Origin: Stappia stellulata
GTDB taxonomy: Bacteria; Pseudomonadota; Alphaproteobacteria; Rhizobiales; Stappiaceae
Length of the DNA stretch: 64,000 bases
NCBI RefSeq assembly: GCF_020176715.1
Contig: NZ_JAIVMF010000007.1
Location: 1-64,000 of the forward strand
Direction: 5' to 3'
Shown: positions 2,227-18,696 of the stretch, piece by piece
Position numbering within the stretch: position 1 is the stretch's first letter
Layout of the letters: each line of letters begins with the position of its first letter
The notes under the pieces: generated by a model
The model's database searches: none
What the model was told of the DNA's origin: nothing
Seen by the model: only the letters and a program-made list of their open reading frames with translations
Program-made: the position numbers and the translations under genes

Positions 2227-2781
2227 ATGGATCCTTTGATGATTGAGTTCGCTTTACGCGCAGCGCGCCGGTTCGGCGCGGGCATCCCCATCGTTGCCGG
2301 CTTTGCCTTTGCGCTGGCGCTGGGAGCAGCAGAACCGGCGCTTGCACAAACGGCCGAGGGCGCGTCCTCCGGCGCACCGGCTCAAAACTGGGTGGTGCAA
2401 TGCGGAGAGGAAACCCCGAAGCGGTGCCGCGTGGTTCAGAACATCGTGATGCAGAAGACCAACCAGCGCCTGCTGACGGTCGTGGTCGAGCCGCGCGAGG
2501 GCGCGCCGAACCACGCGCTCGTGCTGGCATTGCCGCATGGGGTGTTCCTGCCGGCAGGCGCGACCGTCAAGGTCGATGAGGGCAAGCCGGCGCCGATGGT
2601 GATCCAGACCAGCGATGCGAATGGCGCCTATGCGGGCATGGCGATCAGCGACGAATTGCTGGCGTCGCTCAAGAAGGGCACCCAGCTGACGGTCGCGTTC
2701 AAGACCGCGCAGCGCCAGGATATCGCCGTCCCGGTGACGCTGATCGGCTTTACCGCCGCCTACACCCGGCTTGGCAGCTGA
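2227..2781 (+). CDS. Invasion-associated locus B (IalB) family protein
   Basis: A 184-residue secreted protein. Residues about 20-41 form a signal peptide ending PALAQ. The mature part opens NWVVQCGEETPKRCRVVQ, the IalB-family signature with two closely spaced cysteines, followed by beta-rich sequence (VVVEPREGAPNHALVLALPHG, VFLPAGATVKVDEG). Family members are periplasmic or outer-membrane-associated proteins of alphaproteobacteria, first described in Bartonella; molecular function is not established. An internal ATG at 2239 is an equally good start; neither has a strong ribosome site. The gene is monocistronic, with a strong terminator at 2809-2840. Confidence 0.85.
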   Translation: MDPLMIEFALRAARRFGAGIPIVAGFAFALALGAAEPALAQTAEGASSGAPAQNWVVQCGEETPKRCRVVQNIVMQKTNQRLLTVVVEPREGAPNHALVLALPHGVFLPAGATVKVDEGKPAPMVIQTSDANGAYAGMAISDELLASLKKGTQLTVAFKTAQRQDIAVPVTLIGFTAAYTRLGS

Positions 2782-2874: not shown

Positions 2875-3645
2875 TCAATCGCCCTGTTCCAGACGCACCA
2901 GTTCGCCCCAGTTGCGCATCGACAGAAGGTGGCAATAGATCGCGATCAGCGCATCGGAGCGTCGCAGGTCGAGAAAGGCCTCGTCCGACAGCGCCGCGAA
3001 CCGCTTTTCGTCCACAACAAGGAAGTCGTTGACCGTCAGGACCTCGCCGGACGCCAGGGTGAAGCGTCCCGAGTTGGGTACCAGCAGGTCATGCTCGACC
3101 AGTTTTGCCAGGATCGTTTCGCTCGCCAGCGCCTCGCGCTGGAAGGCACCGCAGAACTCCAGCGCCTTTTGCGTGATTTCCGCGGGCTTGCCGTCCTCGA
3201 ACAGGGCTGTTCCCTCGCCCTGGCCGATCTTGTCGCTCGCGGCGTCGATGCACAGCACGAACTCGCTGTTGTCGTCGCTGCGCGCCAGCACGAACGGATA
3301 GCGCCGCACATAGGAGGGGATGTAGCAATTGGCTTGCCAGTTTCCCTTGTCGTCGACGAACAGGTTCTTGCCCGCGCGCAGGCCGAGCACCGCGACGGCT
3401 GCCGGCGGATTGGTGCCTGCCGCGAAGACGATGGGATAGTGGCGAGCGGCGGCGGCAAATTCCACCGCGTTCAATGGTGCGGCGTGGCTGCCGCTGGAAA
3501 AGGCGTAGTTCGGGGTGAGATCGACCCGGACGTCCGCGTGGCGTTCGGCCCGAATGGCTTCGGGGCGACCGTAGAACAGGGGCATGCCGGACGAGGCGCC
3601 GTCTGCCGCGCGTGGGAGGGGACTGTCGGCCTCGGTCTTTGTCAT
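2875..3645 (-). CDS. SapC family protein
   Basis: A 256-residue protein with the SapC-like layout: an early MPLFYGRPEAI and DLTPNYAFSSGSHAAPLNAVEFAAAARHYPIVFA, then SYVRRYPFVLARSDD and a C-terminal region with FDL-type segments. The family is named after S-layer/antimicrobial-peptide-resistance loci, but its biochemical role is not known. No signal peptide or membrane helix is visible, so it is probably cytoplasmic. The ATG at 3643-3645 was chosen because GAAGGACG sits 7 bases upstream; the frame is open for 93 further codons without a better site. It is divergent from the small gene at 3851 and ends on the shared terminator. Confidence 0.85.
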   Translation of the reverse strand: MTKTEADSPLPRAADGASSGMPLFYGRPEAIRAERHADVRVDLTPNYAFSSGSHAAPLNAVEFAAAARHYPIVFAAGTNPPAAVAVLGLRAGKNLFVDDKGNWQANCYIPSYVRRYPFVLARSDDNSEFVLCIDAASDKIGQGEGTALFEDGKPAEITQKALEFCGAFQREALASETILAKLVEHDLLVPNSGRFTLASGEVLTVNDFLVVDEKRFAALSDEAFLDLRRSDALIAIYCHLLSMRNWGELVRLEQGD

Positions 3646-3850
3646 GCTGGGTCGTCCTTCGCCGGTTGGAGGAGTGAGATCATCTCGGGCAATTCGTTCG
3701 CTAATCCGATCGAGTTGCGTGTTTTGTACATTTCCTGTCGCAAGTTGCCTAGGCCCGGACCGCCGGTATATGCATACTGCCGGTTGCGAAGTCGGCGCCG
3801 GCTGTCGCGCTTTCGCGAAATCCGTCATCGCGGCGAAACCGGGAACACAG

Positions 3851-4309
3851 ATGATGCCATCAGACGCCGGAGAAACCTGGGTCCGCGGGAGCCATCTTGG
3901 CGTGAGTTTCACGGGCGAGGACATCCTGCTCGACGGCGGCGTGTTCCGTGATTGTCGCTTCGAGGCCTGCCGCCTGCATTACGACGGCGGCGCGCTGCCC
4001 GTTTTGATGGGGTGCCACTTCGCCGATTGCGGATGGCTGTTCGGCGGGCCGGCTGCAAACACGCTGTCGATGCTGTCGGCGCTCAATCAGGGCGGTTTCG
4101 ACCGGATCGTCGGGCACACACTGGAGGCCATTCGCAGCGGCGCGGTTGCGATGCCGGCTCCGACGGACACGGCAAGCGGCAGGCCGCGACGCAGGGTTAT
4201 TGACCTCGGGTTCGGGAGGTTTCCGGTTCCGCGGGTGCTGCGACGGTCACCGGAGCGTCACGGGACGGCGCCGCAGAGTGGCGCACCAGAAACAGGGGAA
4301 CGAAAATAA
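3851..4309 (+). CDS. Hypothetical protein coupled to DUF6916-like gene
   Basis: A 152-residue protein I cannot assign. The front half has short right-handed-helix-like repeats (SFTGEDILLDGGVFRDCRFEACRLHYDGG, shown here only as a pattern of F/L every few residues) that recall pentapeptide-repeat proteins, with several Cys. The last 40 residues are basic and Pro-rich and look disordered. The stop TAA overlaps the ATG of the next gene by one base, so translation is coupled. The start is uncertain: ATG 3851 has only a weak GGGAA 6 bases upstream, and ATG 3854 is possible. Context with tail-collar genes on the opposite strand suggests a role in the same surface module. Confidence 0.6.
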   Translation: MMPSDAGETWVRGSHLGVSFTGEDILLDGGVFRDCRFEACRLHYDGGALPVLMGCHFADCGWLFGGPAANTLSMLSALNQGGFDRIVGHTLEAIRSGAVAMPAPTDTASGRPRRRVIDLGFGRFPVPRVLRRSPERHGTAPQSGAPETGERK

Positions 4310-4611
4310 TGAGCGGATCGATCGATCTTTCGACAGCCACCATGGCGGACTTCGAGGCGTTTCGGGACAAGCCGATCCGGCTCACAGTCAACGGCGAGAG
4401 CATGCCGCTCGCCATCACCGAGGTGACGCCGGTCAGCGGGCCGGACCGCGCGGGTGGCGCGTTCTCTGTCGTCTTCAGGGGTCCGGTGGAGCCGGTTGTC
4501 GAGCAGGCGACCCATCTGATCGAGATCGAAAGCGCCGGCGAGGCCGCACTTTTCATCGTGCCGCTCGGGCCCGACGGGGACGGCATGCTCTATGAGGCCG
4601 TTTTCAACTAG
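4309..4611 (+). CDS. DUF6916-like protein
   Basis: A 100-residue protein that resembles the DUF6916 family by its Phe-rich start, the ITEVTPVSG segment, GGAFSVVFRGP and the ending AALFIVPLGPDGDGMLYEAVFN. Members of this family are commonly found beside stand-alone phage tail-collar/MdpB proteins, which is also the case here (6583-8201). Function is unknown; no signal peptide is seen. It is translationally coupled to the preceding gene, whose stop overlaps its ATG. It converges on the GNAT gene at 4703. Confidence 0.7.
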   Translation: MSGSIDLSTATMADFEAFRDKPIRLTVNGESMPLAITEVTPVSGPDRAGGAFSVVFRGPVEPVVEQATHLIEIESAGEAALFIVPLGPDGDGMLYEAVFN

Positions 4612-4680
4612 CCCGCTCCAGCCTGCCCGCTCCGGCCAGCTTGCCCGACCCGCGCGCCGGTTGGGTCCAGCGCGGCACAT

Positions 4681-4697
4681 GCCGACCTGCGGTCGGC
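4681..4697. terminator. Small hairpin between convergent genes
   Basis: GCCGACC-TGC-GGTCGGC is a 7-bp stem with a 3-base loop between the DUF6916-like gene and the GNAT gene. It has no T-tract, so it would be at most a weak or factor-assisted terminator. Confidence 0.35.
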
Positions 4698-4702
4698 TCT
4701 GA

Positions 4703-5254
4703 TCACACTGGCCCAGGCGGCTCCCACCGCAGGAGGTGATAGACGCCCTTGTCCTCGCGCTTTGCGAAGCCGAGGCGCCTGTAAAGGCTCATCGCCGGGT
4801 TGTTATGCTCGACGTGAATGCCCACCCCGAGGCCGTTTTCGGCCGCGAGCGCCTGCACATCCTCCAGTATCGCCCGGCCGAGGCCGTTTCCGCGCGTTTC
4901 CGGCATCAGGGCGATGTCGATGATGCGGATTTCCGACGGCCATGTCTCTAGGTAAAGCCGCCCGATGGCATTGCCGTCCTGTTCGACGATCAGCCAGTCG
5001 GCATCGGGGTAATGCTGCATGTAGTGGGCATGCTGCGCCTGGAACTGCATCTGGAGAAAGGCGGCCTTTTCGGCGGCGCTCCAGGGAAGCGGGGCGAGTT
5101 CCTCCTGGCGGGTCGAGGCATAGAGCGCCGCGAGGAAGGGCAGGTCGGTGTCCTCGATCCGTCGAAAGCAAAGCCCGCGCCGGGTGGCGCGGGCGAAATC
5201 CGGCAGGTTTCGGCCTGCCGCCTTCGGGATGGCGGCAGTCGGCTTGTCCGTCAT
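4703..5254 (-). CDS. GNAT family N-acetyltransferase
   Basis: A 183-residue acetyl-CoA-dependent acetyltransferase. The GNAT core is clear: FRRIEDTDLPFLAALYAS at the start, IIDIALMPETRGNGLGRAIL as motif A (acetyl-CoA pyrophosphate loop R-G-N-G-L-G) and NPAMSLYRRLGFAKREDKGVYHLLRW as motif B. The start is the ATG at 5252-5254, one base past the stop of the lectin-propeller gene, so it is the last gene of the left-reading tail-collar operon. The acceptor is unknown; modifying a protein or sugar amine of the neighbouring surface proteins is a guess. Confidence 0.88.
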   Translation of the reverse strand: MTDKPTAAIPKAAGRNLPDFARATRRGLCFRRIEDTDLPFLAALYASTRQEELAPLPWSAAEKAAFLQMQFQAQHAHYMQHYPDADWLIVEQDGNAIGRLYLETWPSEIRIIDIALMPETRGNGLGRAILEDVQALAAENGLGVGIHVEHNNPAMSLYRRLGFAKREDKGVYHLLRWEPPGPV

Positions 5255-5255
5255 G

Positions 5256-6539
5256 TCAATCCGTGCTGCCCGGCGGGGTGAGGTCGCGCACGACCTGGAA
5301 GGAGGCGATGCTGCTGCTGGCCAGCGAGGTCCACCCGGCACTCCACGAGGTGGAATCCGGCGTTGCCTGCGAGATAATGGCCAGCCCGTCCGATTTGCTG
5401 AGTCCCTGGAAACACGTCAAGCGGCCATCGGAATTGTAGTCCATAACGATCCTGCCGAAATCCGGGACGATCCCGATCTTCTGCCATCCGGACCATGTCT
5501 GATGCGGGGCGTCGATCTGGTAGTTGGCATGCAGGCCGCGGTTCTCGTCGATCGCGGCAAGCACGATGTGACCGTGACCGTCAAAGGCCGAGGCGACGTT
5601 GAACAAGACCTGGCCGGTCATGCCCGGCCGCACCCACTCGGCCCATGTCGCACTTCCCGGCGGGTCTTGCCGAAGCTGAACCACTTCCGAGGCGTCACCG
5701 ATCATGAAGATGTTGACCGCTCCTTCCGGGTCCAGAACGGCCGACGGAGGGGTGGGCCCGAGCGACGTGCCGCTGGCCGGGGTGTCGATCCGTGTCCAGC
5801 CGCTCCATTGCGCCGGCGTCAGCGTGAGCGGATCCGTTTCCTGGTTGACATAGACGGCCGTGCTGGACGGATCCTGCCCGGTCCCGGCAACCAGAATGCG
5901 CCCGTCGGCGTTGTTGGTGACGGTGATACGCGCGATATGCGCCCCGCTCAGGGGGGACCAGGAACTCCAGGCCCGATCCGGCGGTTCGGCGACCCGGACA
6001 TGAACGATGATCGGTTCCTTTTGTCCGGGAGGCACCACATGTTCGGTCTTGTCGACGATCTTGTCCGGGTTCTGGAAGATCCACCAGACCGTTCCGCTTT
6101 GTCCGTCGACGCCGAAGATCGCGATCCGCCCGTCCGCGTCGCGGGTCATGCCAAGCTGCGTGAGGTCTTCCACCTGGGGCGGAAGTCCCAGATCGACCGG
6201 CGGGTTCCAGTTCTGGATCGACCCGACATTGTCCGCCTGTTCGTCGATATAGTGCACGGCTTTCGGCGCGGTCCGCGTTTGCGCGGCAATGGCAACGCGT
6301 CCGTCGGTTGTCGAACCGGCGGCGAAAACGCCATAATCCGTGTCGCTCACCGGTGTCCAGTCGTCTCCCCAAGGGCCGTTCGGTTCGCTCTGTGCCTTCC
6401 ACACGAGCTTGTCGCTGCTCATGTCGGCTGCAACGACCATCAGCCGCGACAATTCCGCGAAGGGTGTCATGCCCCGATCGGGTCCAGGGAGAAAGGCGCC
6501 TTCTTCAAGTTCGATTTCGGTTCTCGGTGCTTCGGTCAT
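5256..6539 (-). CDS. PLL-like seven-bladed beta-propeller lectin
   Basis: A 427-residue protein with seven W-x(2,3)-W type blade signatures spaced evenly: GPWGDDWTP, IQNWNPPVD, RAWSSWSPL, AQWSGWTRI, ATWAEWVRP, QTWSGWQKI and TSWSAGWTSL. They alternate with DGRI/DGRL strands (TTDGRVAIAA, DADGRIAIFG, NADGRILVAG, NSDGRLTCFQ). This is the layout of the Photorhabdus PLL lectin family and tectonin-like propellers, which bind fucosylated or methylated sugars. No signal peptide is visible, as in PLL. The ATG at 6537-6539 is preceded by AGGAGCG. It sits between three tail-collar genes and a GNAT gene, so it may be the sugar-recognition partner of the collar proteins. Ligand is unknown. Confidence 0.72.
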   Translation of the reverse strand: MTEAPRTEIELEEGAFLPGPDRGMTPFAELSRLMVVAADMSSDKLVWKAQSEPNGPWGDDWTPVSDTDYGVFAAGSTTDGRVAIAAQTRTAPKAVHYIDEQADNVGSIQNWNPPVDLGLPPQVEDLTQLGMTRDADGRIAIFGVDGQSGTVWWIFQNPDKIVDKTEHVVPPGQKEPIIVHVRVAEPPDRAWSSWSPLSGAHIARITVTNNADGRILVAGTGQDPSSTAVYVNQETDPLTLTPAQWSGWTRIDTPASGTSLGPTPPSAVLDPEGAVNIFMIGDASEVVQLRQDPPGSATWAEWVRPGMTGQVLFNVASAFDGHGHIVLAAIDENRGLHANYQIDAPHQTWSGWQKIGIVPDFGRIVMDYNSDGRLTCFQGLSKSDGLAIISQATPDSTSWSAGWTSLASSSIASFQVVRDLTPPGSTD

Positions 6540-6582
6540 GGCCGCGCTCCTGTGAGAAAACATCTGAAATGACGTCGCAACC

Positions 6583-7098
6583 TCAGCTGCGCGACGGGTA
6601 AAGTCCCTGAAGTGCGATGATGAAATTCATCGTCAGGTAAGGCTGCATGTTGTTGTGCGCCTGCGAGCCGCCGGCCGATGGCAGCGCGGTCATGTTCACC
6701 AGGCTTGCCGATGAGTGATAGGCATTGGCGAAACGCGATCGTGCAAGGGATGTGGTGCTTGAGGGCGTCGATACCAGTGCCTGGTTCGGTGCTGCCATCG
6801 GTGTGTGCTTGTGGTTCGGCATCTGTGCCTCGGTAAGCGTCACCATCTCGACACCACCGCGCTGGCCAAGCCTCCGCGAGGTCAGCCCTGGGCCGCGACC
6901 CGGATGCATCGGCGCGCGTCCTTCCAGATTCGGCAAAGCGGTCGTGGACCGACCGTCGCCGCCATAGGTGGTCCCGATCAGCGAGAACAGTGCCGTGTTC
7001 TGCGAGACGGGAAGCAACTGGCCGTTGCAGAAGGCCCAACTGCGGGGTGCGAAGTTGCCGGCAAAAATCCGGATTTCGGCAATGAACGGTTCGGACAT
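6583..7098 (-). CDS. Phage tail collar domain protein (MdpB-like), copy 3
   Basis: A 171-residue protein that is nearly all one phage tail-collar domain: MSEPFIAEIRIFAGNFAPRS, WAFCNGQLLPVSQNTALFSLIGTTYGGDG, LPNLEGRAPMHPGRGPG, TLTEAQMPNHKHT and NMQPYLTMNFIIALQGLYPSRS. This is the layout of the microcystin-dependent protein MdpB family. It is one of three tandem paralogues; the N-terminal 60 residues and the C-terminal ending are almost identical in all three while the middle loop (about residues 100-145) differs. The variable middle is where receptor contacts lie in phage collar/fibre proteins. No phage structural gene is nearby. Confidence 0.9.
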   Translation of the reverse strand: MSEPFIAEIRIFAGNFAPRSWAFCNGQLLPVSQNTALFSLIGTTYGGDGRSTTALPNLEGRAPMHPGRGPGLTSRRLGQRGGVEMVTLTEAQMPNHKHTPMAAPNQALVSTPSSTTSLARSRFANAYHSSASLVNMTALPSAGGSQAHNNMQPYLTMNFIIALQGLYPSRS

Positions 7099-7111
7099 TG
7101 GGACGTCTCCT

Positions 7112-7630
7112 TCAGTGCCGGCTCGGGTAGATGCCGAAGAGCGCGATGATGAAATGCACGCACAAATAGGGCATCAGATTGGTGTGAGAACGGCTGCCAC
7201 CGGTTCCGGTCACCGCACTTGATGACAGGTTCTCCGAAGGGAATGTTTCAAAATAAAGGTTGCCCACGGTCGACTGTGCGGGAATGTTCCCGGCCGGAGA
7301 GGCTTCCGTTCCGAAGTCGGTCGAGGCCTTCAGGGGATGCGTGTGGCTGGGCATCTGGTTGACGGTAAGCGTGACCTGTTCCGCGCCGCCTTTCGCGCCC
7401 AGGCGGCGTTCGGACAGTCCGGGCCCATGGCCGGCGTGGATCGGCAAGCGCCCCCGCATGTCGGGCAGACCGAAGGTCGTTCGACCGTCGCCGCCATAGA
7501 TCGTGCCGAGCAAGGAAAACAGCGCGTCGTTCTGGCTGACCGCGAGCAACTGGCCGTCGCAGAAAGCCCATCCGCGCGGGGCAAAATTGCCCGCGAACAT
7601 GCGGATCTCGCCGACAAAGGGTTCGGACAT
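7112..7630 (-). CDS. Phage tail collar domain protein (MdpB-like), copy 2
   Basis: A 172-residue tail-collar protein and paralogue of its neighbours: MSEPFVGEIRMFAGNFAPRG, WAFCDGQLLAVSQNDALFSLLGTIYGGDG, LPDMRGRLPIHAGHGPG, TLTVNQMPSHTHP and a C-terminal NLMPYLCVHFIIALFGIYPSRH. The start is the ATG at 7628-7630, because GGGAGG lies 8 bases upstream. It is 13 bases from the next copy, in the same left-reading operon. The variable loop is at about residues 105-145. Likely role as in the family: a trimeric collar or fibre-tip protein of a secreted or surface structure; this is inference. Confidence 0.9.
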   Translation of the reverse strand: MSEPFVGEIRMFAGNFAPRGWAFCDGQLLAVSQNDALFSLLGTIYGGDGRTTFGLPDMRGRLPIHAGHGPGLSERRLGAKGGAEQVTLTVNQMPSHTHPLKASTDFGTEASPAGNIPAQSTVGNLYFETFPSENLSSSAVTGTGGSRSHTNLMPYLCVHFIIALFGIYPSRH

Positions 7631-7682
7631 GCACTTGCCTCCCAAGGCGTTTCAAATGAACTCGGAGCGTGAGTGAAAAGCG

Positions 7683-8201
7683 CTAATTGCGAGATGGAAA
7701 GAGCCCTTGCAGGGCGATACAGAAGTTCACCGCGAGGTAGGGCTGCATGTTCTCATGCGCCTGGCTGCCACCGACATTCGTGATTGTTCCCGCCCGCAAC
7801 TGGACTTCGTTCGCCCCCGGACTCCTGTAAAAATTGGCAGGGCTGTCCGCCAGGACATTGCCGACCGGTATGGGCGTATCACCTACTGCGGAGGAGCCTT
7901 CGAACTGGTGATCGTGTTGCGGCATTTCATTGGCGGAGAGCGTGTGCGTTTCTTCGCCGCTCTTTTGGCCTTCGGTATGAAACTGCCCGCCATTCGAGCG
8001 CCCGACATGGATCGGGGTGCGGCCGCGCAGGTCGGGAAGGGCGAAGCTCGTGCGACCGTCGCCTCCGTATGTGGTGCCGAGAAGCGAATACAGCGACTGG
8101 TTCTGGTTGATGGGAAGGATCTGTCCGTCACAAAAGCCCCAACCTCGCGGAGCAAAATTGAAGCCCATCATTCGAATTTCTGCAAGAAACGGCTCAGACA
8201 T
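7683..8201 (-). CDS. Phage tail collar domain protein (MdpB-like), copy 1
   Basis: A 172-residue tail-collar protein, first gene of the operon. Recognisable parts are MSEPFLAEIRMMGFNFAPRG, WGFCDGQILPINQNQSLYSLLGTTYGGDG, LPDLRGRTPIHVGRSNG, TLSANEMPQHDHQ and NMQPYLAVNFCIALQGLFPSRN. The Q-H-D-H-Q element matches the His-containing motif of the family, which in T4 gp12-type collars binds metal. The ATG at 8199-8201 has GGGAGGT 5 bases upstream. A strong sigma-70-like promoter with repeated elements lies at 8225-8259. It is the most divergent of the three copies in the middle loop. Confidence 0.91.
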   Translation of the reverse strand: MSEPFLAEIRMMGFNFAPRGWGFCDGQILPINQNQSLYSLLGTTYGGDGRTSFALPDLRGRTPIHVGRSNGGQFHTEGQKSGEETHTLSANEMPQHDHQFEGSSAVGDTPIPVGNVLADSPANFYRSPGANEVQLRAGTITNVGGSQAHENMQPYLAVNFCIALQGLFPSRN

Positions 8202-8436: not shown

Positions 8437-11400
8437 TCAGGGCAACGGGACGCTAGCGCCGCCCGTCAGGGTTCCCGTGATCGTGCTGCCGGAGAACACG
8501 AAGACATCCGCAGGTCCAGGATTGACGGTGTTGCCGGCGCCGCCGCCCGTGCTCAGGAATGTGGCGACGCTTGCCGTGTCATTGTCCGAGCCGCCATAGC
8601 CTTGAAGCTCGATCCGGGACGAGCCGAAGGAGAAGGCCTGGATACCCTTGGTGAACGCGCCGGCGGAGCCTGTGGCTGTAACGCCGGCTGCGAAATTCAC
8701 GCGCATGATGCCGGCAGAACCCGCCCCTGTTCCCGCTTCGAATGACAGGCCGTAAAGCGGGAATGCGCCGGCGGGTGCCACGGTGAAGGTGTTTCCGCTC
8801 CCGAAGGTCGCGTTGATCACACCGGTATTGTCGTTCGAGATCAAGACGGCACTGTCCTGATTGATCGCCTGTACGGTGTTGTTGGTCAATCGCGTGGTAT
8901 GGGTGCCGGCACCAAGCGCGGCGATACGCAATCCCACGCCCTGGTTCGAGCCGGACCCGGCAAGCGTATTGTTGCCGATCGTGTTATTTGTCAACTCGCC
9001 GCGCAAGTCGGTCGAAGCACTGGAGGCACCGCCGGTTATGATGTTGATCGCCGTGCTTTCGCCTGCGGCTGTGGCATCTGTGTTGACCTGGTTTCCGCTG
9101 ATATTGTAGGTGACCGTCGCGTTTGACTGATGTGCGATATCGATCGGAACGAAGATATTGTCGTTGAACGTGTTGTTGGAAATCGTGATCGATCCGCCAG
9201 TCGTGCCGCTATTGCTGTAAAACGCCACGCCCCGGGACCGGTTGCGCAGGAAAGTGCTGTTTCGCACCGTCGCGTTGATCTGCGCCGAGGACGTCATATC
9301 GAACAAGAGCCCGATGTTGCCGCCGGCGCCGGCATTGGTATCGCGGATCTCCACGTTGTTCATGTCGATGGTCAGCGTCCCGCTGCTGTTCTCGACCGTG
9401 AAGATATTCTCGTAGGACGAGTGGAAGAGCGAATTGGTGACGGTCGATCCGGCGCCGGTCAGCTCGTCGAAATGGACATTGTGAATATCGGGAGCGGCGA
9501 CGCCGGAATCCGTCGCATTGCTGAAGATCTCGCTATTGATGATCGTTATGTTGGCGACATTCGCGCCGTCGATACCGTGATTTCCGGAAAAACCGGTGAT
9601 CCGGGAGTTGTCCAGCGTGAACCCGCTGGAGTTTGAGATATCAATTCCGTCATTGCCGCTGTTGACGGTGTTGGTGCTGTCCGTCAGCACCATGTTTCTC
9701 AGCGTGACATTGTTGGTGTTGGAGATAAGGACGGCAGCTCCGGTCGTGTTCTGGACGGTGCCGCCGGTGCCCTGGGCGGAGAAACTGCCGCCGCCCGCCT
9801 TGTTCGATGTGCGTCCGCGGGTGCCGACGTTCACCGTTGTATCGCTGCTGCCTTCGCCCGTAACCGCGAACCCGCCCGACCCTGCATTGCTTAGCACGAT
9901 ACCGTTGGTTGCGCCGTCGGCGGACACGCTCTCGAACGTCACCCCGGCGCCGCCGATCGTGGTGTTATGGATATCGACTGCCGTGCCGGTGGTGCTTGTC
10001 ACATTTGCGGAGCCACCGATCACCACCGTTCCGCCGCCGCTGGCGAAAACGCCCTTTCCGGTCGTTGAGTTGATGGTGTTGGTGGTTGTCGAATTGAAAT
10101 TGATGGTGCCACCGTTTGTCACGGTGACCGCATTGCCCGACGTTGTGTCGATATCCGTGTTCGCCCCCGAAAAAGTGACGGTCCCATTGGCGTTGTTCGT
10201 CAGGCTGATCGCCGTCAGGCCACCGGTGCTGATCGTCTTCGTGCCGCCGGAGAAGGTGAATGTCGCGCCGCTGGCGCTGTTTGAGACGGACAGGCCGGTT
10301 CCGGCCGATCCGGTGATCGTCATGTCGCCGGTCAGGTTGACCGTGCCGCCGACAGTGTTGAACACCATTCCGCTGCCGGTGCTGCTCGTCGAACGTGTGG
10401 CCGTCGCATTCAGGTTCACCGTGGTGTTGGTGATATCGAACACCGCACGATTGTCCGACGTAATGCTGCCGGCGGTTGTCGTGCCGATATTGAGCGTCCC
10501 GGTGTTGTTGGCAAGAATGCCGGAGGCGTTGTTCGCGGCAATCTTGGTTACCCCGGTGAAGCTGAAGGTGCCGGTGTTGCTCACCAGCCTGATGCCGCCG
10601 CCGCTTTCTCCCGCATCGTCATAATCGATATCGAGCGAGCCTATGGTGATCCCGCCGGCACCCGTCGTCGTGTTGGAGATATCGACCGCATAGACGTCGT
10701 TGCCAAGTGCGTTGTTGGTGCGAATGGTCCCGTTGCTGATTGTGAGAACGCCCGCGTCGTTCGCCACGATCGCCTGACCGGTTGGCGCCGAACTGCGCTG
10801 GTCGTCGTTGTAGACGAGATTGGCGAAATCGATTGTGGCCGTGCTGTTGCTTGTCAGCACAAAGCCGTCGCCGGCGGATGCGGTGGCGATCGTGTGGTTG
10901 CGAACCTCGATTTGCGCCTGGAAATCGGCGGCAAAGCCCGCACCCGAACTGGTGATCGAGACGCCGCTGGCGGTCGGGTTGTGAATGATCGAACCGCCGG
11001 TCAGCGTGAAGCTGCCCGTGTTGGCGTTCAACCGGATGCCGGTCGCGACATTGTCGGCCGTCGAATTCGATCCGATCGTCACCGCCGCGAAGGTGAAGGC
11101 TCCGGAGGAAGCCGAAATGTCGATGCCGTTCGTTGTGGCGCCGGCGATATTCATTGATCCGCCGGAGAAAGTGCCCGATCCGCCGACATTCGTCATGGTG
11201 ACGGCGCTGCCGGAGATCTTTCCGGAAGACCCGAGACTGTCGAAACTGACACCGCTTGCGCCGATGGCAACCTGATTGAACGAGAGCAGGCCACCGGTGG
11301 CCGAGTTGATCGCCTGCGTGCCCGCGCTTGCGACATTCACGGTCAGCAGCGTGCCGGCGGTGCCATTGGCATCGAAACCGGTGCCGCTGTTGGTATCGAT

Positions 11401-14400
11401 GTCGAGCGCCCCGGTGAAATTCACCGTGGCCGTATCTCCCGCGCCCAGGTCGAGATCGACGCCGCCACCCGTGGACCCGGCATTGTTGATGGTCGTGGCG
11501 CCAAAATTGAACGTGCCGGTCGAATTCGTGATCCGCACGCCTGCGCCGGTCGAGCCGGTCACGTTGAGCGTGCCGATGTTGAGTGCCTGGCTCGCCGCGC
11601 CGCCCGACGCGTCACCCGCATCGACGAGAACACCGGCGCCGGTCGCATTGGTCGAACTCACCGAGGAAAAGCTTAGCCCCATGGTCAGCGGATCAAGAAA
11701 CAGCGCCGTGCCGCTCGTCGTGTCGATCGTGCCGGTGCCGCCACCCGTTAGCGCGAAGGTCGTTCCCGAGCCCTTGGTATTGACCTCAAGGCCGGTGCCG
11801 TTGGTGTTGTAGACGTTGAGCGTGACCAGTCCGAGTGAGCCGGTGGTGTCGATGAACGACACGCCGTCGCCCGAAACGCGGGAGCCTGTGCCCTGGCCAA
11901 CGTTCAGCGTTCCGGCGGCAACCGTGCCGCCGCCATTGATGTTGAAGTCGACGCCGGTAAACAGGATGCCGCCGCCCGTGCCGTTGCCGATTACCGCGTT
12001 GTCGGAGAACGCGCGCACGTTGACGCTGCTCGTCGTGGAACTGACGTTTTGACCGGTGATCTCGACGCTGGGCACGCCGGCCGCGGCACTTTCGAAAGTC
12101 GTGTTTCTGATCGACAGCCGCAGATTGTCCGGCGTGCCCGCGCCGGTCTCGTCGGCGTCGAGCGCCTGACCGGTGGAGCGGATCGTGTTGGTTCCGTTCA
12201 GGGAGACCGTGAGTGCGCCGGTGCCGGATGAATCCACGTCGACGCCGATGCCGCCGACATCGCCGGTATCGCCGTTTCCGCTCGATCCCATGGTGATGTT
12301 TTCCAGGGCCAAGGAGCGGTCGCTTGCGTCGGAGTTCGCGATCTGGATACCGGCCCCGCCGATGGCGGAAGAGGCGCCAAAGGTGATGTTGCTGAAGGAG
12401 CCTGACGCGTTGGTGAGCTGCAGGCCGGCGCCGCTCGCCCCGTCGATGGTGTTGGTGCCGGTCATCGTGCCGCCGAGCGACCCGCCCGCCGATCCGTCGA
12501 GGCGAACACCGCTGGTCAGCGCCAGGTCGGAGAAGGCGTAGGTCGAGGCGCCGGAGGTCGTTGCCAGATCGATGGCGAAGCCGCCGGTGCCGCCGCCGAT
12601 GCTGCTGGAGCGAACGGTCACGCTCTCGGCTGTCGAAAAACTCGCCGAAATGCCGTCGCCGGTGCCCGTGTTGGTGATGGCGACATTCTGGATGCCGGCG
12701 GACCCTGTCAGGTTGACCGTGTTCCCGCTGCTTGAGTTCAGCACCAGACGGTTGCTGTCGAGCGTGACCGTCGAGGTGATCGTCGAACTGCTGCCGAGGC
12801 CGGTCAGCAGCACGCTTGCGGGCGGGCCGCTCGCGGTGATGCCGAGCGTCGACACGTCGATGCTGGTGGTGCCGCTGTCGAGACCGATCAGGACCTGGCC
12901 GTTGTCCAGGGACAACGGGCCGGCCGTCGAAACCGTCTGCGTTCCGGTTCCGGTGTCGGTGTCGATCAGCACGATGACGTCGGCGGTCGCGGCGGCGGCC
13001 TCGGAAATCGAGCCCGGATCGCTGAAGGTACCGGCCCCGGAACTGTTGTTCTGGTCGACAACGAAGACGACGGGACCGGTCAGGTTCGAGACGTTGCTGG
13101 TTCCAAAGCCGATGTCTTCAAAGTCGTATTCGCCGGTCGCCGTGACGCCGGTCGTCACGATGGCGACATTGCCGGCAATGCCCGATGTATCGATAGAACT
13201 TGCGACCGGCGCCGAGCCGTCGCCGTACTGGAACCGCACGCCGTTGGCGATATTGGAGTTGGTGAGGTCAATACCGGTCTGAACGCCCTGGATGGTTCCC
13301 GACCCGGTGGTCACGACATCCTTGGTGTTGTCGTAGTCGGTAAGGTCGATGCCCTTGGAGCCGGTCTGGCTGGTGCCGGTGATATCGAGGGTGGCGAAGG
13401 TCACCTGTCCGTCGAAGGTGCCGCCGGACAGGTTGAGGCCCGTTCCCGTGCCGACATTGGTGATGTCGACATTGCCGAACGTCATGTTGCCGTTGGTTCC
13501 GGTCGCCCGGATGCCGTTGCCGCCGGTTCCCATGGCAATCGTCATGTCGCCGGTCGTCAGGGTGCCGGAGTTCCCGGCAAGCAGCAGGCCGTCGCCGCTG
13601 GTCAGCGTCAGGTTGACCGTGCCGAACTGCATGTTTGACGAGACGTTGGTTGCAGAGACGGCCGACCCGGTGGAACCGGAAATCGAGGTCGTTCCGCTGA
13701 CGTTCAATGCGCCACTCGATACAGTGTTCAGGCCAACGCCTACCCCGCCGACGCCTGTTCCCGTGATTGACGAGAAGTTCACCCCGCCTGCACCGAAGGC
13801 GATGCTGCCGAAATTTATGATCTGGGCATTGTTGACCGCAAGTGAACCGGTTCCGACGGACAGCGTGCCACCGAGCTGCACGACCATGCCGAAACCGCCG
13901 TCTGTTTCGATGTCGATGTCGGCGAAGTTGACGGTGACGTTCTGCCCCGAGTTGTCAATGAAAACGCCGGACCCGCCAACTGCGGTGGTGGTGCCGACGT
14001 CCACGGTTCCGGTGAAGGAAATCGAATGCGCACCCGTCGATGTGACCGAGGTGATGCCGCTTGTCGATCCGCCGTTGGCGACCACCGAACCCGCATGGGT
14101 GAAGCTGCCGCCGCTGCGGTTCTGCATCAGGATCGACGCACCAGTGGTGGTGCTGATCGAGCTGTCCGCGTCGAAGGTGAAGACCGCGTCGCCGCCGTCG
14201 ATCGAAAGCGTGTTGCCGCCCGCGATGTCGACATTCGTTGCCGTGACCGTGCCGGAGGCATTGTTGAACGCGATACCGTTCGCGGCGTTGCTGATGTCGA
14301 TGTTCGAAAGCGTCGTGGTGCCGGTGGCGTTGGTGAGCGTGATCGCGGTTCCGGTGGCGCCGGTCGAGGTGATGTTCGTCAGCGTCGAGCCGGCGGCGTT

Positions 14401-17400
14401 CAGCAGGATGTCGCCGGCGTTTCCGGAGAAGTCGACATCGTTGATCGTTGTGTTGGTCGAGGGCGTGATCTCGATGCCGACAGTGGCGAAATTCGAGACG
14501 CTGGAGCGCTCGATCACCGTGCCGGTCGCGCCGCCGGCATCGTTGATCGCCCGGGCTGCGGTGCCGTTGCCCTCGAAGTCGATGCCGGACACGCGGATGC
14601 CGTCGCCGCCGAGCGTGACCACGTCGTTTCCGGTGAAGGTCGTCAGCGTCGCCGCGCCGCCTCCGGTCGGGTCCGCGATGGTCAGCCCTGCGGAAAACAA
14701 CTGGATCGTCGGCGGGACGGTCAGGCTGACCTGGATCGCCTGACTGTTTCCAGCGCCGTCGCCAAAGGAGAGCAGCTGTTGGTTTGCGGCAAGGTTCAAA
14801 GTGTTGTTGGCGTTCGTGCCGACGGCGGTGATCGCCGATCCGTCGTCGATCAAGACAATAATGTCGCCGGCGCCGGCAGCGGCTTCAGCCGCGGCGAGTG
14901 TCATCGGGTTGGACGCGTCCGAACCGGATCCGTCGCCGCCCCCGGTCGCGTTTCCATCGGAATCGACGAAATAGATCGCACCGATGCCGAAACCCGCACC
15001 CGGACTACCCGCGAAATCCACGTCCTGGAAATTGTAGGTGCCGGCCACGGGCGCATTGGTGGCGTCGATGGCGGTTGTCGCGGAAATCGTCGAGCTCCGA
15101 TCCGTCGCGCCCTCGCCATCGCCATAGACGAAGGTGGCGTTGCTTGTCGCATTGAGAAAGACGCCGGTCTCGACCCCGGCGATGGAGCTCGAGGCGCCGG
15201 CTGCTGCCGGATCGCCGAGCCGCACGGTCTGGCCGCCGGTCAGCCCGCGCAGGTCGACACCGATCGTGCCGCTCGCCGATGTGCTGGTCACGTCGAAATC
15301 ATTCACCGTGACCGCACCGCCGAGCGTGGCGCCATTGAGGTCGAAGGCGACCGTGTTGGCGCCGGTCAACGCAATGTCGAGATCGGTGAAGCTGATCGTT
15401 CCGGTGTTCACGCCGCTGATGTCGACGCCGTTGCCGGTCGTCGAGGCGGTGACCGTGGTTGCGCCGAAGGCGACGTTGGCGGCGTTGCCCGATAGCGCGA
15501 TGCCGGCGTTCGTGGCATTTGTCACCGTCGTTGTTCCGGTCACCGTGAAGGCGTCGCCCGTCACCCCGGTCAGCGCAACGCCCGAGGCGCCGCTTGCCGA
15601 GGAAGACAGGCTGTCGAATGTGATGCCACCGGTGGCAATGGTCACGCCGGCGAGGGACACCGCCTGGCCGGCGCTGGCCGCGACGCTTGTTGCGCCCGCA
15701 TTGGCGATCCCGAGAGTTCCGCCGGTGCCGACCAGACCGGTTCCGCTGGTTGTCGTGATCGCCAGGCCGCCGTTGAAGCTGGCCGCTCCCGATCCGAGGG
15801 TGACACCCCTGCCGGTCGACCCCGTGCTGGTGGTGGTCACCTGGCCTGCAAATGTCACGGTCCCGCTGTTCGCGGCGGCAGTGCCGAGAAGGATATGATC
15901 GCCGTCGAAGCCGGAGTTGTTCTGAGTGGTGACCGCCCCGCCAAAGGCCACGCCGCCGTCTGAGCCTTGAACGGAGATATTCGCGGTCTGGGCGTTTTGC
16001 ACCAGCGCGGGTCCGGTGATGCCCACGGTTCCGGCGTCGACAGTGTTCACCAGGAGGCCGGTCTGCGCCCGGTTCGTGGTCAGGGAGGCGAAATCGGCGG
16101 CGAAGCCGGTTGCCGCGCCGGTGACGTTGCCGATCACCACGCCGGCGGTCGTCACCGTGCCGGCGCCGATCTGGGTCGTGCCGAAGTCGATGTTGACGCC
16201 GGTGGCGGAGATTGTATCGATGACGATGCCGCTTGCGGCCGCCACCGACGCCGTCTGGTTGATCGTGGTTGTTCCGAAGGCGATCGTCTGTCCGGCATTC
16301 GAGAGCCCGGAAATCTCGATGCCGTTCACATCGTAGTTGTCGAGCGTCGTGGTGCCTGTGACGGTGATGCTCGACCCCGCGCCCAGATCGGTCAGGGAGA
16401 TGCCGTCGTCGACGGTGCCGTCGCCGGAGCCGGTGATGCTGTCGAATGTGACGCCGCCCGCGCCGGTTCCGATGCCGGAGAACGACAGGGCCATGGCGCC
16501 CGCCGTGGTGATCGTTTCCGCCCCGCCGGTCGCGGCAACGGCGACGCTGCCGCCGCCTTGCGCGGAAAAGCCGGTCTGGCCCGTGGTCGCGATCTCAAGA
16601 CCGCCGGTAAAGGCGATTGCCGACGCCTGGCCGTTGTTGTCGATGTCGACGCCCGCTCCGCCGCCAAGCGCGGTCGTGGTGCCGAGAGACACCTGGCCGC
16701 CGAAGGTGACATCGCTCGCCGCCGTTGCGCCGGCCACGGAAATGCCACCGGCCGCCGGGCCGTTCGAGGAGATGCCGCCGAAGTGGCTGAAACTGCCGCC
16801 GATCCGGTTGGTGATCGACACGGCCGTTCCGGAGGTGTTGGTCACCGAACTGGTGGCGTTGAAGGACACCGCCGCATCGCCGCCGGAAACGGAAAGCGCA
16901 TTCGCGCCGGTAATGTCGACGTTGTTGCCGGTGACGGTGCCGCTCGCCCCGGTGAGCGACAGGCCTGTGCCGCTTGAATTGGTGATGTCGACATTGGTCA
17001 GCGTCACCGCGCCGGTCGTGTTGGTCAGCGCGATGCCGTTGACGGGCGTATCGGTGCCGGTGCCGATGGTCACGCCCTCGATGGTGAGGCCGGCGATGCC
17101 GGAGCCCGACAGGGCGGTCCCAAGCGTGCTGCCCAGCGTGATGTTGCGGATCGCATTGCCGTTCGCGATCGCGATGGTGCTGACCGCGCCGGACGAATTC
17201 GTCAATGTGGCCGCGCCGCTGCCCGGATCTGTGATCGTCACCGATCCTGTGGGCAGATTTGTGCCGGTGATGTTGGCGGCGATAATCAGCCCGGCGGAGG
17301 TGAAGGTCCGCCCGTCGCCGAAGGTGTCAATGGTCTGATTGTCGGCGAGTGCGAAGGTCGCGCCGGCGGTGTCGATGGCCGATCCGTCGTTGATCAGGAT

Positions 17401-18696
17401 GAAATTGACGGTCCCCAAGCCCGCCGCTGCGCCGATCGCCGTGGCGATGGAGGCGCGGTTGGCTGTGGAGGAGCCATCGCCGGTGCCGGTGGCGCTGGCC
17501 GCGATGAAATAGTTCGGCGTGCCCGATGTCGTGAAATTGAAGGGGCCCGAGAAGCCCGTCGTGCCGAAGGCATAGGAGCCGTTTGCGGCGTTCACGCCGA
17601 TGCCGTCGAGCGCGTAGGTGAGGCCGCCGATGTCGCCGCCGCCCCAGGTGAATACGGCATCGGGCGCGGCAAAGGCGCCGCCATTGGTGCCGAGCACCAG
17701 GCCGACATCCACATTGGTGATCGTGCCGCCATTGGTGATGGTGACCGTGCGACCGTTCTGCGTGCCCGACAGGTCGACACCCTTGCTGCCGGCCGTGCCC
17801 GCGCCCGTGATGTCGAGGCTCTGCATCGTCAGCGTCGCATCCGCGCCGGCCATGTTGAGGCCGGTGCCGCCGCCGAGCCCGGTCACATCCACGTCGCCGA
17901 AGGTCAGCGTGGCATTGTTGGTGTTGCTGAGGTCGATGCCGTCGCTGGTCGCGCCGGCGCCGAGGCCGCTCAGCGTCGTCGTGCCCGTGAAGCCGAATGT
18001 GCCGCCGCCGGTGACCGCGATGGCGTCGTCGCCGGTGTTCGTCGCGGTGAAACCGCTGACGTTGATGATGCCGGTATTGTTGGAGAACGACAGGGCATCT
18101 CCGGAGACGTTGCTGACGTTGATGTTCGAAAGCGTCGTCGTGCCGGTATTGTTCGCGATCGACAGGCCGTTGGTGCCGCCGTTGATCGTGATGTTGCTGA
18201 TCGTCGCCGACTGGTTGTTCAAAAACAGCGACGTGCCGGTGATGCCGGAGAAGGAAATGTTGCTGACGTTGGCATTGACCGCGCCGGTGACGCTGATGCC
18301 GTCGGTGGCGTTCTGGATGTTGAGGTCCGTCAGCGTGAAGTTGGAGACCGCGTTGCCGCCGATCACCGTCGTTCCGCCCTGGATGGTCAGGTCGCGGATC
18401 GTCACGCCGCTGGCGAGCGTCACCGTCGTCACGCCGGGATCGCCGTCGATGGTGCCATTCGTGCCCGACAGCAGGAAGTTCGTCGTCGAGCCGTCGGCGA
18501 GCTGCACCTGGATGCTCTCGCCGCCGCCGATGAGCGTTTGCCCCGACTGGAGGGTGATGCCGGATGTCGTGATCGGTCCGCCACCGCCAAGGGCGATGAC
18601 GATGCCGTCCGTTCCCGCGTTGGCGACAGCCGTGGCGAGCGAGGTCGGATCGGCGAAGCCGCCCGTGCCGCCGCCGGCCTGGTCGGCGTAATAGAC
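8437..18696 (-). repeat. Coding repeats of the adhesin passenger (four beta-helix modules)
   Basis: Four restarts of the same opening element are encoded at about 18695, 17511, 14974 and 13071. Each has an aromatic-x-V/A-D or A-S strand, a Gly/Ser-rich turn, a P-x-S-L-type or A-x-A-x-A helix, a D-x-I-V-L-I-D-x-G strand and L-x-x-x-Q-x-L/I-x-x-F/G-G. Between them run irregular 18-25-residue coils. The DNA is correspondingly rich in GCCGGTG/GGTCAC-like short repeats, which also create long meaningless open frames on the other strand. Confidence 0.7.

Follow-up and report, generated by a model that had tools for sequence, protein, structure and literature searches.

T4 gp12 and the other collar tips known so far are homotrimeric, and large fibrillar adhesins carry stalk and tip on one chain. 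Proteins with a phage tail collar domain are also on record from bacteria. In the available parts of the studies concerned, Rhizobium RhiB is reported to have a collar domain and the rhi genes a link to interaction with plants (PMC13133039, PMC6969944), a soil metaproteome includes COG4675 proteins (PMC5579227), and a collar gene of Pseudomonas chlororaphis lies within a tail gene cluster, unlike the module described here (PMC4727817). In Acaryochloris marina, the available part of the report gives AM1_3684, AM1_3686 (an acetyltransferase), AM1_3687, and AM1_3688 to AM1_3690 (three "phage tail collar" genes) as lower in high white than in low far-red light (PMC11633204); the six genes change together, and, judging by the gene numbers, we read them as the same module. 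Here, we analyzed 64,000 nucleotides of Stappia stellulata DNA (RefSeq assembly GCF_020176715.1, contig NZ_JAIVMF010000007.1, positions 1 to 64,000; this whole stretch is called the window below), in which three tandem collar genes lie beside genes for a GNAT N-acetyltransferase, a DUF6916 protein, a lectin-like propeller, and a very large protein, referred to as the giant. An earlier note on this DNA knew of no described function for the whole set, and the open-access literature searched yielded none, nor any description of the module as a set, any mention of DUF6916, or any paper on an inverse autotransporter with a tail fiber protein or on tail collar proteins as secreted adhesins in a gene cluster. 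A tail collar together with an autotransporter came up in one E. coli genome paper. Judged by this literature, the module is new as a whole, and each of its parts belongs to a known family.

We propose that the locus encodes a surface-recognition module in which a giant stalk is combined with a heterotrimeric, T4 gp12-like collar knob, with the GNAT and DUF6916 proteins as helpers and with no role as a phage part; in our estimate this reading has an even chance of being right. The features of the locus, with protein lengths in amino acids (aa), are as follows.

8437-19779, minus strand: giant, 3780 aa, with an N-terminal inverse-autotransporter barrel, a parallel beta-helix passenger, and a C-terminal cap (IAT_beta PF11924, Beta_helix PF13229, cap alignment)
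18769-19629, minus strand: stretch with the giant's inverse-autotransporter beta-barrel (IAT_beta match)
8440-8862, minus strand: the giant's C-terminal cap, ending in ...GGASVPLP (cap alignment row and cap profile matches)
7683-8201, minus strand: collar c1, 172 aa, first in the triplet (PF07484, E 1.9e-28)
7112-7630, minus strand: collar c2, 172 aa, second in the triplet (PF07484, E 4.8e-30)
6583-7098, minus strand: collar c3, 171 aa, third in the triplet (PF07484, E 1.9e-26)
5256-6563, minus strand: PLL-family seven-bladed propeller, lectin homologue, 435 aa (profile against PLL/PHL entries of the PDB)
4703-5254, minus strand: GNAT N-acetyltransferase, 183 aa (PF00583, E 2e-13)
4309-4611, plus strand: DUF6916 protein, 100 aa (PF21880, 81.9 bits, cut-off 27)
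3851-4309, plus strand: small protein, function not assigned (phrog_26297, E 3.7e-14; open reading frame [ORF] open from 3584)
2875-3924, minus strand: SapC-family protein, adjoining the pair of small protein and DUF6916, of uncertain module membership (PF07277, 226 bits)
2227-2781, plus strand: IalB-family gene on the far side of the SapC gene (PF06776)

Transcription on the minus strand runs from the giant through c1, c2, c3, and the propeller to GNAT. The earlier note had described three collars, a propeller, and a GNAT enzyme in one operon, with a DUF6916 pair opposite, and ORF and Pfam analysis located all of these as stated. Its term "stand-alone" does not fit the locus, as it had missed the 3780-aa giant, whose ORF ends 235 bp upstream of c1 on the same strand, and a SapC gene adjoins the other side. 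The collars, which match PF07484 at 92.2 to 103.7 bits (cut-off 24), had been said to have near-identical ends: the ends are conserved but not near-identical, and c2 and c3 are 51 to 52% identical to c1 over their length. The propeller, for which an alternative start at an inner ATG near 6539 is possible, had been taken for a PLL-like seven-bladed protein, and this was borne out. Although it has no Pfam match at an E value of 1, a profile of the propeller and eight relatives matched PLL2, PLL, PLL3, and PHL of Photorhabdus in the PDB (E 1.3e-38 to 4e-29), the homology covering two to four stretches.

To what extent these genes keep together was examined in several genome sets. Among 150 genomes of the order, DUF6916 was found in 10 and collars in 24; nine of the 10 DUF6916 genomes also had collars, in eight cases within 5 kb. 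Among 398 genomes of the phylum, a set that shares a few genomes with the first, DUF6916 was found in 44 and collars in 100, and collars were present in 43 of the 44 DUF6916 genomes versus 57 of the 354 others (Fisher p 1e-28). At least 49 of the 52 DUF6916 matches in this set, three of which score below the family cut-off, have a listed collar match no more than 5 kb away, a count that is a lower bound since not every collar match was listed and used. The exceptions are G069, with a collar 45 kb off on the same contig, G136, in which no collar was found, and one of the two matches of G319. DUF6916 occurred in one of 14 control genomes, and that genome was among the four with collars. DUF6916 relatives were also present in 23 of 72,556 plasmid records. 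Of six such records, one had no annotation; the five annotated ones (Ruegeria, with genes TM1040_RS01845 to RS01875 of Ruegeria sp. TM1040, Aminobacter, Comamonas, Pontibrevibacter, and Sinorhizobium) carry DUF6916, GNAT, three "tail fiber protein" genes, and a large gene that follows the triplet and that we counted as the giant. In two of the five, a large hypothetical gene matching the propeller profile lies between the GNAT and tail fiber genes, and the Comamonas record has one extra small gene ahead of GNAT.

A collar-anchored scan of named species genomes, with the c2 alignment as the query, gave the best 80 of 575 relatives. The loci come from ten phyla (Pseudomonadota, Acidobacteriota, Chloroflexota, Bacteroidota, Planctomycetota, Actinomycetota, Verrucomicrobiota, Kiritimatiellota, Myxococcota, and Cyanobacteriota), some loci being without a phylum. 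Because the query was built from cassette members, the locus set leans towards cassettes; moreover, the loci annotated with the DUF6916, GNAT, and collar profiles are those on which these profiles had been iterated. Exactly three tandem collars were present in 71 of the best 80 loci. Flanks of more than 3 kb were available on either side of 51 triplets; among these, a GNAT gene was found within 3 kb in 49, DUF6916 in 45, and a giant ORF, defined by length and composition, in 40, with all three in 37. The nearest end of 48 giants lies no more than 3 kb from the collars, compared to 12 giants farther out in 714 kb. When unassigned neighbors were clustered, one giant family appeared in 44 loci and the next family in 8. 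The recurring module is widespread in ten phyla. As to the co-occurrence survey that the earlier note had suggested, collars, DUF6916, and GNAT do go together across phyla, but the propeller was seen in alphaproteobacteria only, at 13 of 107 annotated loci. In four gamma- and betaproteobacterial loci (L077, L079, L081, and L092), further genes recur near the collars; one of them, in L077, L079, and L092, reads by eye like a sulfotransferase.

The collars themselves fall into three types. A tree was built from 237 collars of the named loci, six plasmid loci, and the window, with three odd-length collars left out. Operon position (c1, c2, or c3) changes 18 times on this tree, versus a mean of 113.4 and a minimum of 96 in 500 within-locus shuffles. 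With clade A comprising the collars that are neither B nor C, clades A-B-C follow in order in 65 of 77 complete triplets over nine named phyla, and the best-clade F1 is 0.92 for c2 and 0.92 for c3. Collar runs, 90 in all, hold exactly three members in 80 cases. An order fixed across phyla argues for neither a recent duplication nor a pool of alternatives; to judge from the tree, the three collars are ancient paralogues, as a fixed three-part complex would leave behind. In the PDB, the c2 profile matched the collar region of T4 gp12 (1ocy) at an E value of 2e-6.

Single-chain versions carry the same message. Three genes (L134, L135, and L026) encode three collars in one chain, with three Pfam Collar stretches each. 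The L134 fusion (499 aa) bears PEP-CTERM and PEPxxWA-CTERM sorting signals above their cut-offs, and the L135 (730 aa) and L026 (902 aa) fusions bear RTX calcium-binding repeats, which are typical of type I secretion. In all three, the segment order is C-segment and then core, repeated three times, whereas separate collars have the core first (mean relative position 0.26, found in 204/237) and the C-segment last (mean relative position 0.96, found in 202/237). The fusions are thus circularly permuted, yet each retains cores and C-segments in threes, which is what a closed threefold ring would predict. Chains with exactly three collars point to one three-part object, and the "repertoire" of binders that the earlier note had seen in the triplet gives way to ancient paralogues in a fixed order. 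In L022, one ORF (L022:5194-6873, minus strand) consists of two collars and GNAT, the third collar being separate. Together, the fusions suggest that the three collars make one unit, that some are exported, and that GNAT is functionally tied to them.

We then turn to the giant, whose class rests on the Pfam matches rather than on the PDB profile search. A Pfam scan of the short N-terminal stretch gave PF11924 at 37 bits (cut-off 22.3), and IAT_beta matched five of the six rows of the barrel alignment, including that of the window. IAT_beta was absent from the list when the whole giant was scanned at an E value of 0.01, which returned Beta_helix only, but the shorter stretch matched. Beta_helix (PF13229) matches four stretches of the giant. 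Searched against the PDB, the barrel profile had Invasin (4e1t) as its sole match, which at an E value of 0.93 is not significant. By these family matches, the window giant is of the barrel and beta-helix class. No recognition domain was seen among the Pfam matches of the stalk polypeptide (Beta_helix and IAT_beta), the collars being encoded separately, although the giant could hold a recognition domain of an unrecognised type.

Same-strand upstream giants across phyla often end alike, with an RLRQR stretch, LPGYxG, a short helix, and a tail such as CPLP or CPTP. For a cysteine count, 42 upstream ORFs were reduced to 31 giants by leaving out ORFs of less than 800 aa, L016, L061, L063, L103 (wrong frame chosen), and L104. 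In 25 of the 31, a cysteine no more than 14 residues from the end is accompanied by at least one farther upstream, at 50 to 113 residues from the end, and 5 lack both; one giant has upstream cysteines only, and the window giant has neither cap cysteine. In L015, L041, L042, and L112, the cap pair are the only cysteines in the approximately 3040 to 3090 residues covered. This paired presence and absence is a disulfide pattern, and hence suggests an oxidising, extracytoplasmic place: the cap cysteines of most capped giants probably form a disulfide. A cap model, an alignment of 12 caps that includes the window's own, matched 5 of the 398 genomes (the window's own and G069, G331, G289, and G258); all five matches adjoin collar triplets, and none occurs elsewhere in these genomes. 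A strict cap search in the first loci found nine ORFs only, in each of which the cap lies no more than 7 residues from the C-terminal end. The last 220 aa of the L098 giant were modeled by AlphaFold2 with a predicted local distance difference test score (pLDDT) of 88.7, reaching 95 in the last block. The strand pattern and weak PDB matches suggest a parallel beta-helix followed by a helix and final strands; the best PDB match of the cap has an E value of 0.04, and the matches listed are mostly right-handed beta-helix proteins.

Two further observations concern giants at other loci. A planctomycete locus has a second cap-bearing ORF (L048:13610-15280, minus strand), open at the locus end and approximately 2.5 kb from the collar triplet. 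The giants of L098, L103, L095, L054, and L044 share an apparent signal peptide and then a common domain around DNNxATGCTV within the first 250 aa. This domain is followed by an IPTL-like hydrophobic segment, basic residues, a second hydrophobic segment, and then repeats; the IPTL-like segment of L098 scores below the IPTL-CTERM cut-off.

The propeller, a homologue of sugar lectins, is an addition to the module that was seen in alphaproteobacteria only. GNAT scores 45.7 bits with the RimI model, under the equivalog cut-off of 86.4, and has six weak acetyltransferase matches in the PDB, with a GNAT-family N-terminal acetyltransferase at an E value of 9.5e-4. The AlphaFold2 model of DUF6916 (pLDDT 91.9) has a small, mostly beta, barrel-like fold, for which no match at an E value of 0.001 was found in the PDB or BFVD. 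The matches listed include tail and head-tail barrels; query TM-scores among them do not exceed 0.46 (PDB) or 0.53 (BFVD), and the likeness to phage barrels is suggestive only. The small protein has one significant match, phrog_26297, of unknown function, and its profile matches six ORFs among the annotated loci, each beside DUF6916. SapC adjoins DUF6916 in L015, L036, L041, L042, L055, L091, L107, and L112 as well as in the window. The DUF6916 genes of L020 and L024 also adjoin SapC, but the stretches covered there hold no collar; this may be a second context of DUF6916, linked to SapC.

The proposed device can be pictured as follows. The giant would be the stalk, with its N-terminal barrel in the outer membrane and its beta-helix and cap pointing outwards, an orientation that we infer from the inverse-autotransporter class. 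The three collars, each with a fixed role, would form one heterotrimeric knob resembling the trimeric tip of T4 gp12. Gene order and co-distribution suggest that this knob sits outside the cell as a recognition tip, most likely on or near the giant's cap. In the lineage of the window, the PLL-type lectin would add sugar binding, a putative role suggested by its homology. GNAT probably acetylates the collar N-termini, and DUF6916, with its small beta fold, may serve as an adaptor or assembly helper. In a more specific version, a widespread bacterial appendage would consist of a giant exported stalk whose cap is locked by a disulfide and, docked on this cap, a phage-like A-B-C heterotrimeric knob of three ancient paralogues whose N-termini may be acetylated; the knob would make recognition exchangeable, in diderm and monoderm bacteria alike and without dependence on a phage. 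This version is tentative, and we hold it to be less likely than not.

Several points weigh against this proposal. The export of leaderless collars is its weakest step. By eye and without the use of a predictor, no signal peptide was seen on the window collars, propeller, GNAT, or DUF6916 protein, and no recurring secretion gene or system was found among the clustered neighbors. The lineage-dependent kind of giant is a second weak point. The type of giant varies among lineages, and the cap is not universal: at several loci of Rhodobacterales and Rhizobiales, the giant is encoded on the opposite strand and apparently ends in a C-terminal barrel (by eye), and the giant of the Comamonas locus is a YDG-domain protein. 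Moreover, the composition rule finds no giant at 11 of the 51 well-flanked loci and also fires in 25 of 80 viral collar loci, which makes the cap evidence stronger than the giant counts. The cap model, however, is not sensitive and was silent in 95 of the 100 collar genomes. As for the triplet, 12 of the 77 deviate from the A-B-C sequence, and the c1 collars do not form a clean clade (F1 0.73). The collar N-termini are mostly Met-Ser or Met-Ala, and position 2 is Ser, Ala, or Thr in 225 of 237 collars, which would be compatible with N-terminal acetylation, but this count is biased in that the start-picking pattern permitted only eleven residues there; these three residues are also common at position 2 of bacterial proteins. 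G069 and G136 carry DUF6916 beside SapC, away from collars. An extracellular place for the collars has indirect support from the single-chain fusions and from a PF07484 protein (YP_165745.1) that, in the available part of the study, belongs to the Ruegeria pomeroyi exoproteome, although that protein is a candidate cassette member only (PMC4949626).

Other explanations have to be set beside this one. The collars might instead form three separate homotrimers, stacked or side by side like T4 gp10, gp11, and gp12. T4 gp12-type tips are homotrimeric, and the Gp10_C model was matched besides Collar, by c1 just over the cut-off (27.6 bits versus 27) and by c2 and c3 below it (19.1 and 21.8 bits). Paralogues in a fixed order and permuted single chains with three cores and three C-segments fit a closed trimer better, and we regard separate homotrimers as a possible but somewhat unlikely arrangement. 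It is also conceivable that collars, GNAT, and DUF6916 are never displayed and instead stay intracellular or at the inner membrane, where they would act in the assembly or quality control of the giant. The missing signal peptides and export genes agree with this, and GNAT needs acetyl-CoA, which places at least this protein in the cytoplasm. On the other hand, the single-chain versions bear RTX repeats or a PEP-CTERM signal, no other giant was found by the composition rule in the 16 to 20 kb around the three fusion genes, a lectin propeller would have no obvious ligand inside, and the R. pomeroyi exoproteome includes a collar protein, as far as the available part of that study goes (PMC4949626). 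An intracellular role is in our view unlikely. A defence or competition device, in which released collar-lectin complexes bind phage or rival cells, would make sense of a tail-tip fold combined with a lectin, of the DUF6916 genes on 23 plasmid records, and of the positive selection reported for Solibacter collar paralogues in the part of that study available (PMC3174227). Apart from GNAT, however, the window proteins showed no domain for killing or enzymatic activity, PADLOC not having been searched, and such a device appears improbable.

The remaining possibility is that the locus is left over from a prophage or tailocin, or that it is a receptor-binding cassette of a phage. At an E value of 1e-10, 249 of 50,697 phage records hold collar relatives, and the sheath model PF04984 has one match in the genome (G000:C7:146497-146964), outside the window but on the same contig, 138 kb off. 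Three or more tandem collars are present in 8 of the 80 viral collar loci, and two of these eight, IMG/VR contigs classed as viral (L146 and L148), combine a collar triplet with GNAT and a large ORF; these contigs may be host or mobile-element DNA. Against such an origin, the other viral loci are mostly of a different kind, with a single collar in 71 of 80. The gene set recurs over ten phyla. DUF6916 was found in neither the phage collection, the IMG/VR single-sequence scan, nor the 80 viral collar loci. No phage structural gene was found among the 79 features listed at the five plasmid loci besides the 15 tail fiber genes of the triplets, the gene table being incomplete. Tube, baseplate, or spike genes were not seen beside the cassette, although those models were not run on the window or genome. 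The earlier statement that the collars are used outside a phage, with no tail-building genes nearby, agrees with what was seen at the plasmid loci and with the distance of the sheath gene. A phage remnant was rejected on the missing structural genes and the absence of DUF6916 from phages and viral loci, and we consider it very improbable. A set of alternative binders was also rejected, on the fixed A-B-C order.

If the surface-recognition reading is right, bacteria have adopted the trimeric tip of a phage fiber, divided it among three chains, and employ it together with giant surface proteins. Genes annotated only as "tail fiber protein," "GNAT," and "hypothetical," which lie beside very large genes, together make up a module that recurs in ten phyla and that gives DUF6916 and COG4675 a testable context. 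It also raises the question of the route by which leaderless fiber tips reach the surface. Should it prove to act in adhesion, the module would count as a new type of surface adhesin.

Compared to known systems, the locus resembles each in part. With the short tail fiber gp12 of T4 (1ocy), it shares the c2 profile match, for which a trimeric knob is expected; it differs in having three separate minimal paralogues, no shaft or baseplate partners, and a bacterial surface protein beside them. It resembles inverse autotransporters of the intimin/invasin type in the IAT_beta match of the window giant, which is above the curated cut-off, and departs from them in the beta-helix passenger with its own cap, in the linked collar triplet, and in the other kinds of giant with which other lineages pair the triplet. 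The likeness to the PLL and PHL lectins of Photorhabdus is one of propeller homology by sequence; here the propeller is encoded within a collar operon. The rhiABCD genes of Rhizobium have in common with the module the collar domain of RhiB (COG4675, "microcystin-dependent protein"). As far as the available parts of the sources describe them, they hold one collar gene, rhiB, among rhiA to rhiD with rhiI and rhiR, and not three collars with GNAT and DUF6916. Finally, if the model is right, the module would share with fibrillar adhesins a long repeat stalk and a recognition tip, and would differ from them in having a phage-like tip with genes of its own, built from three distinct chains.

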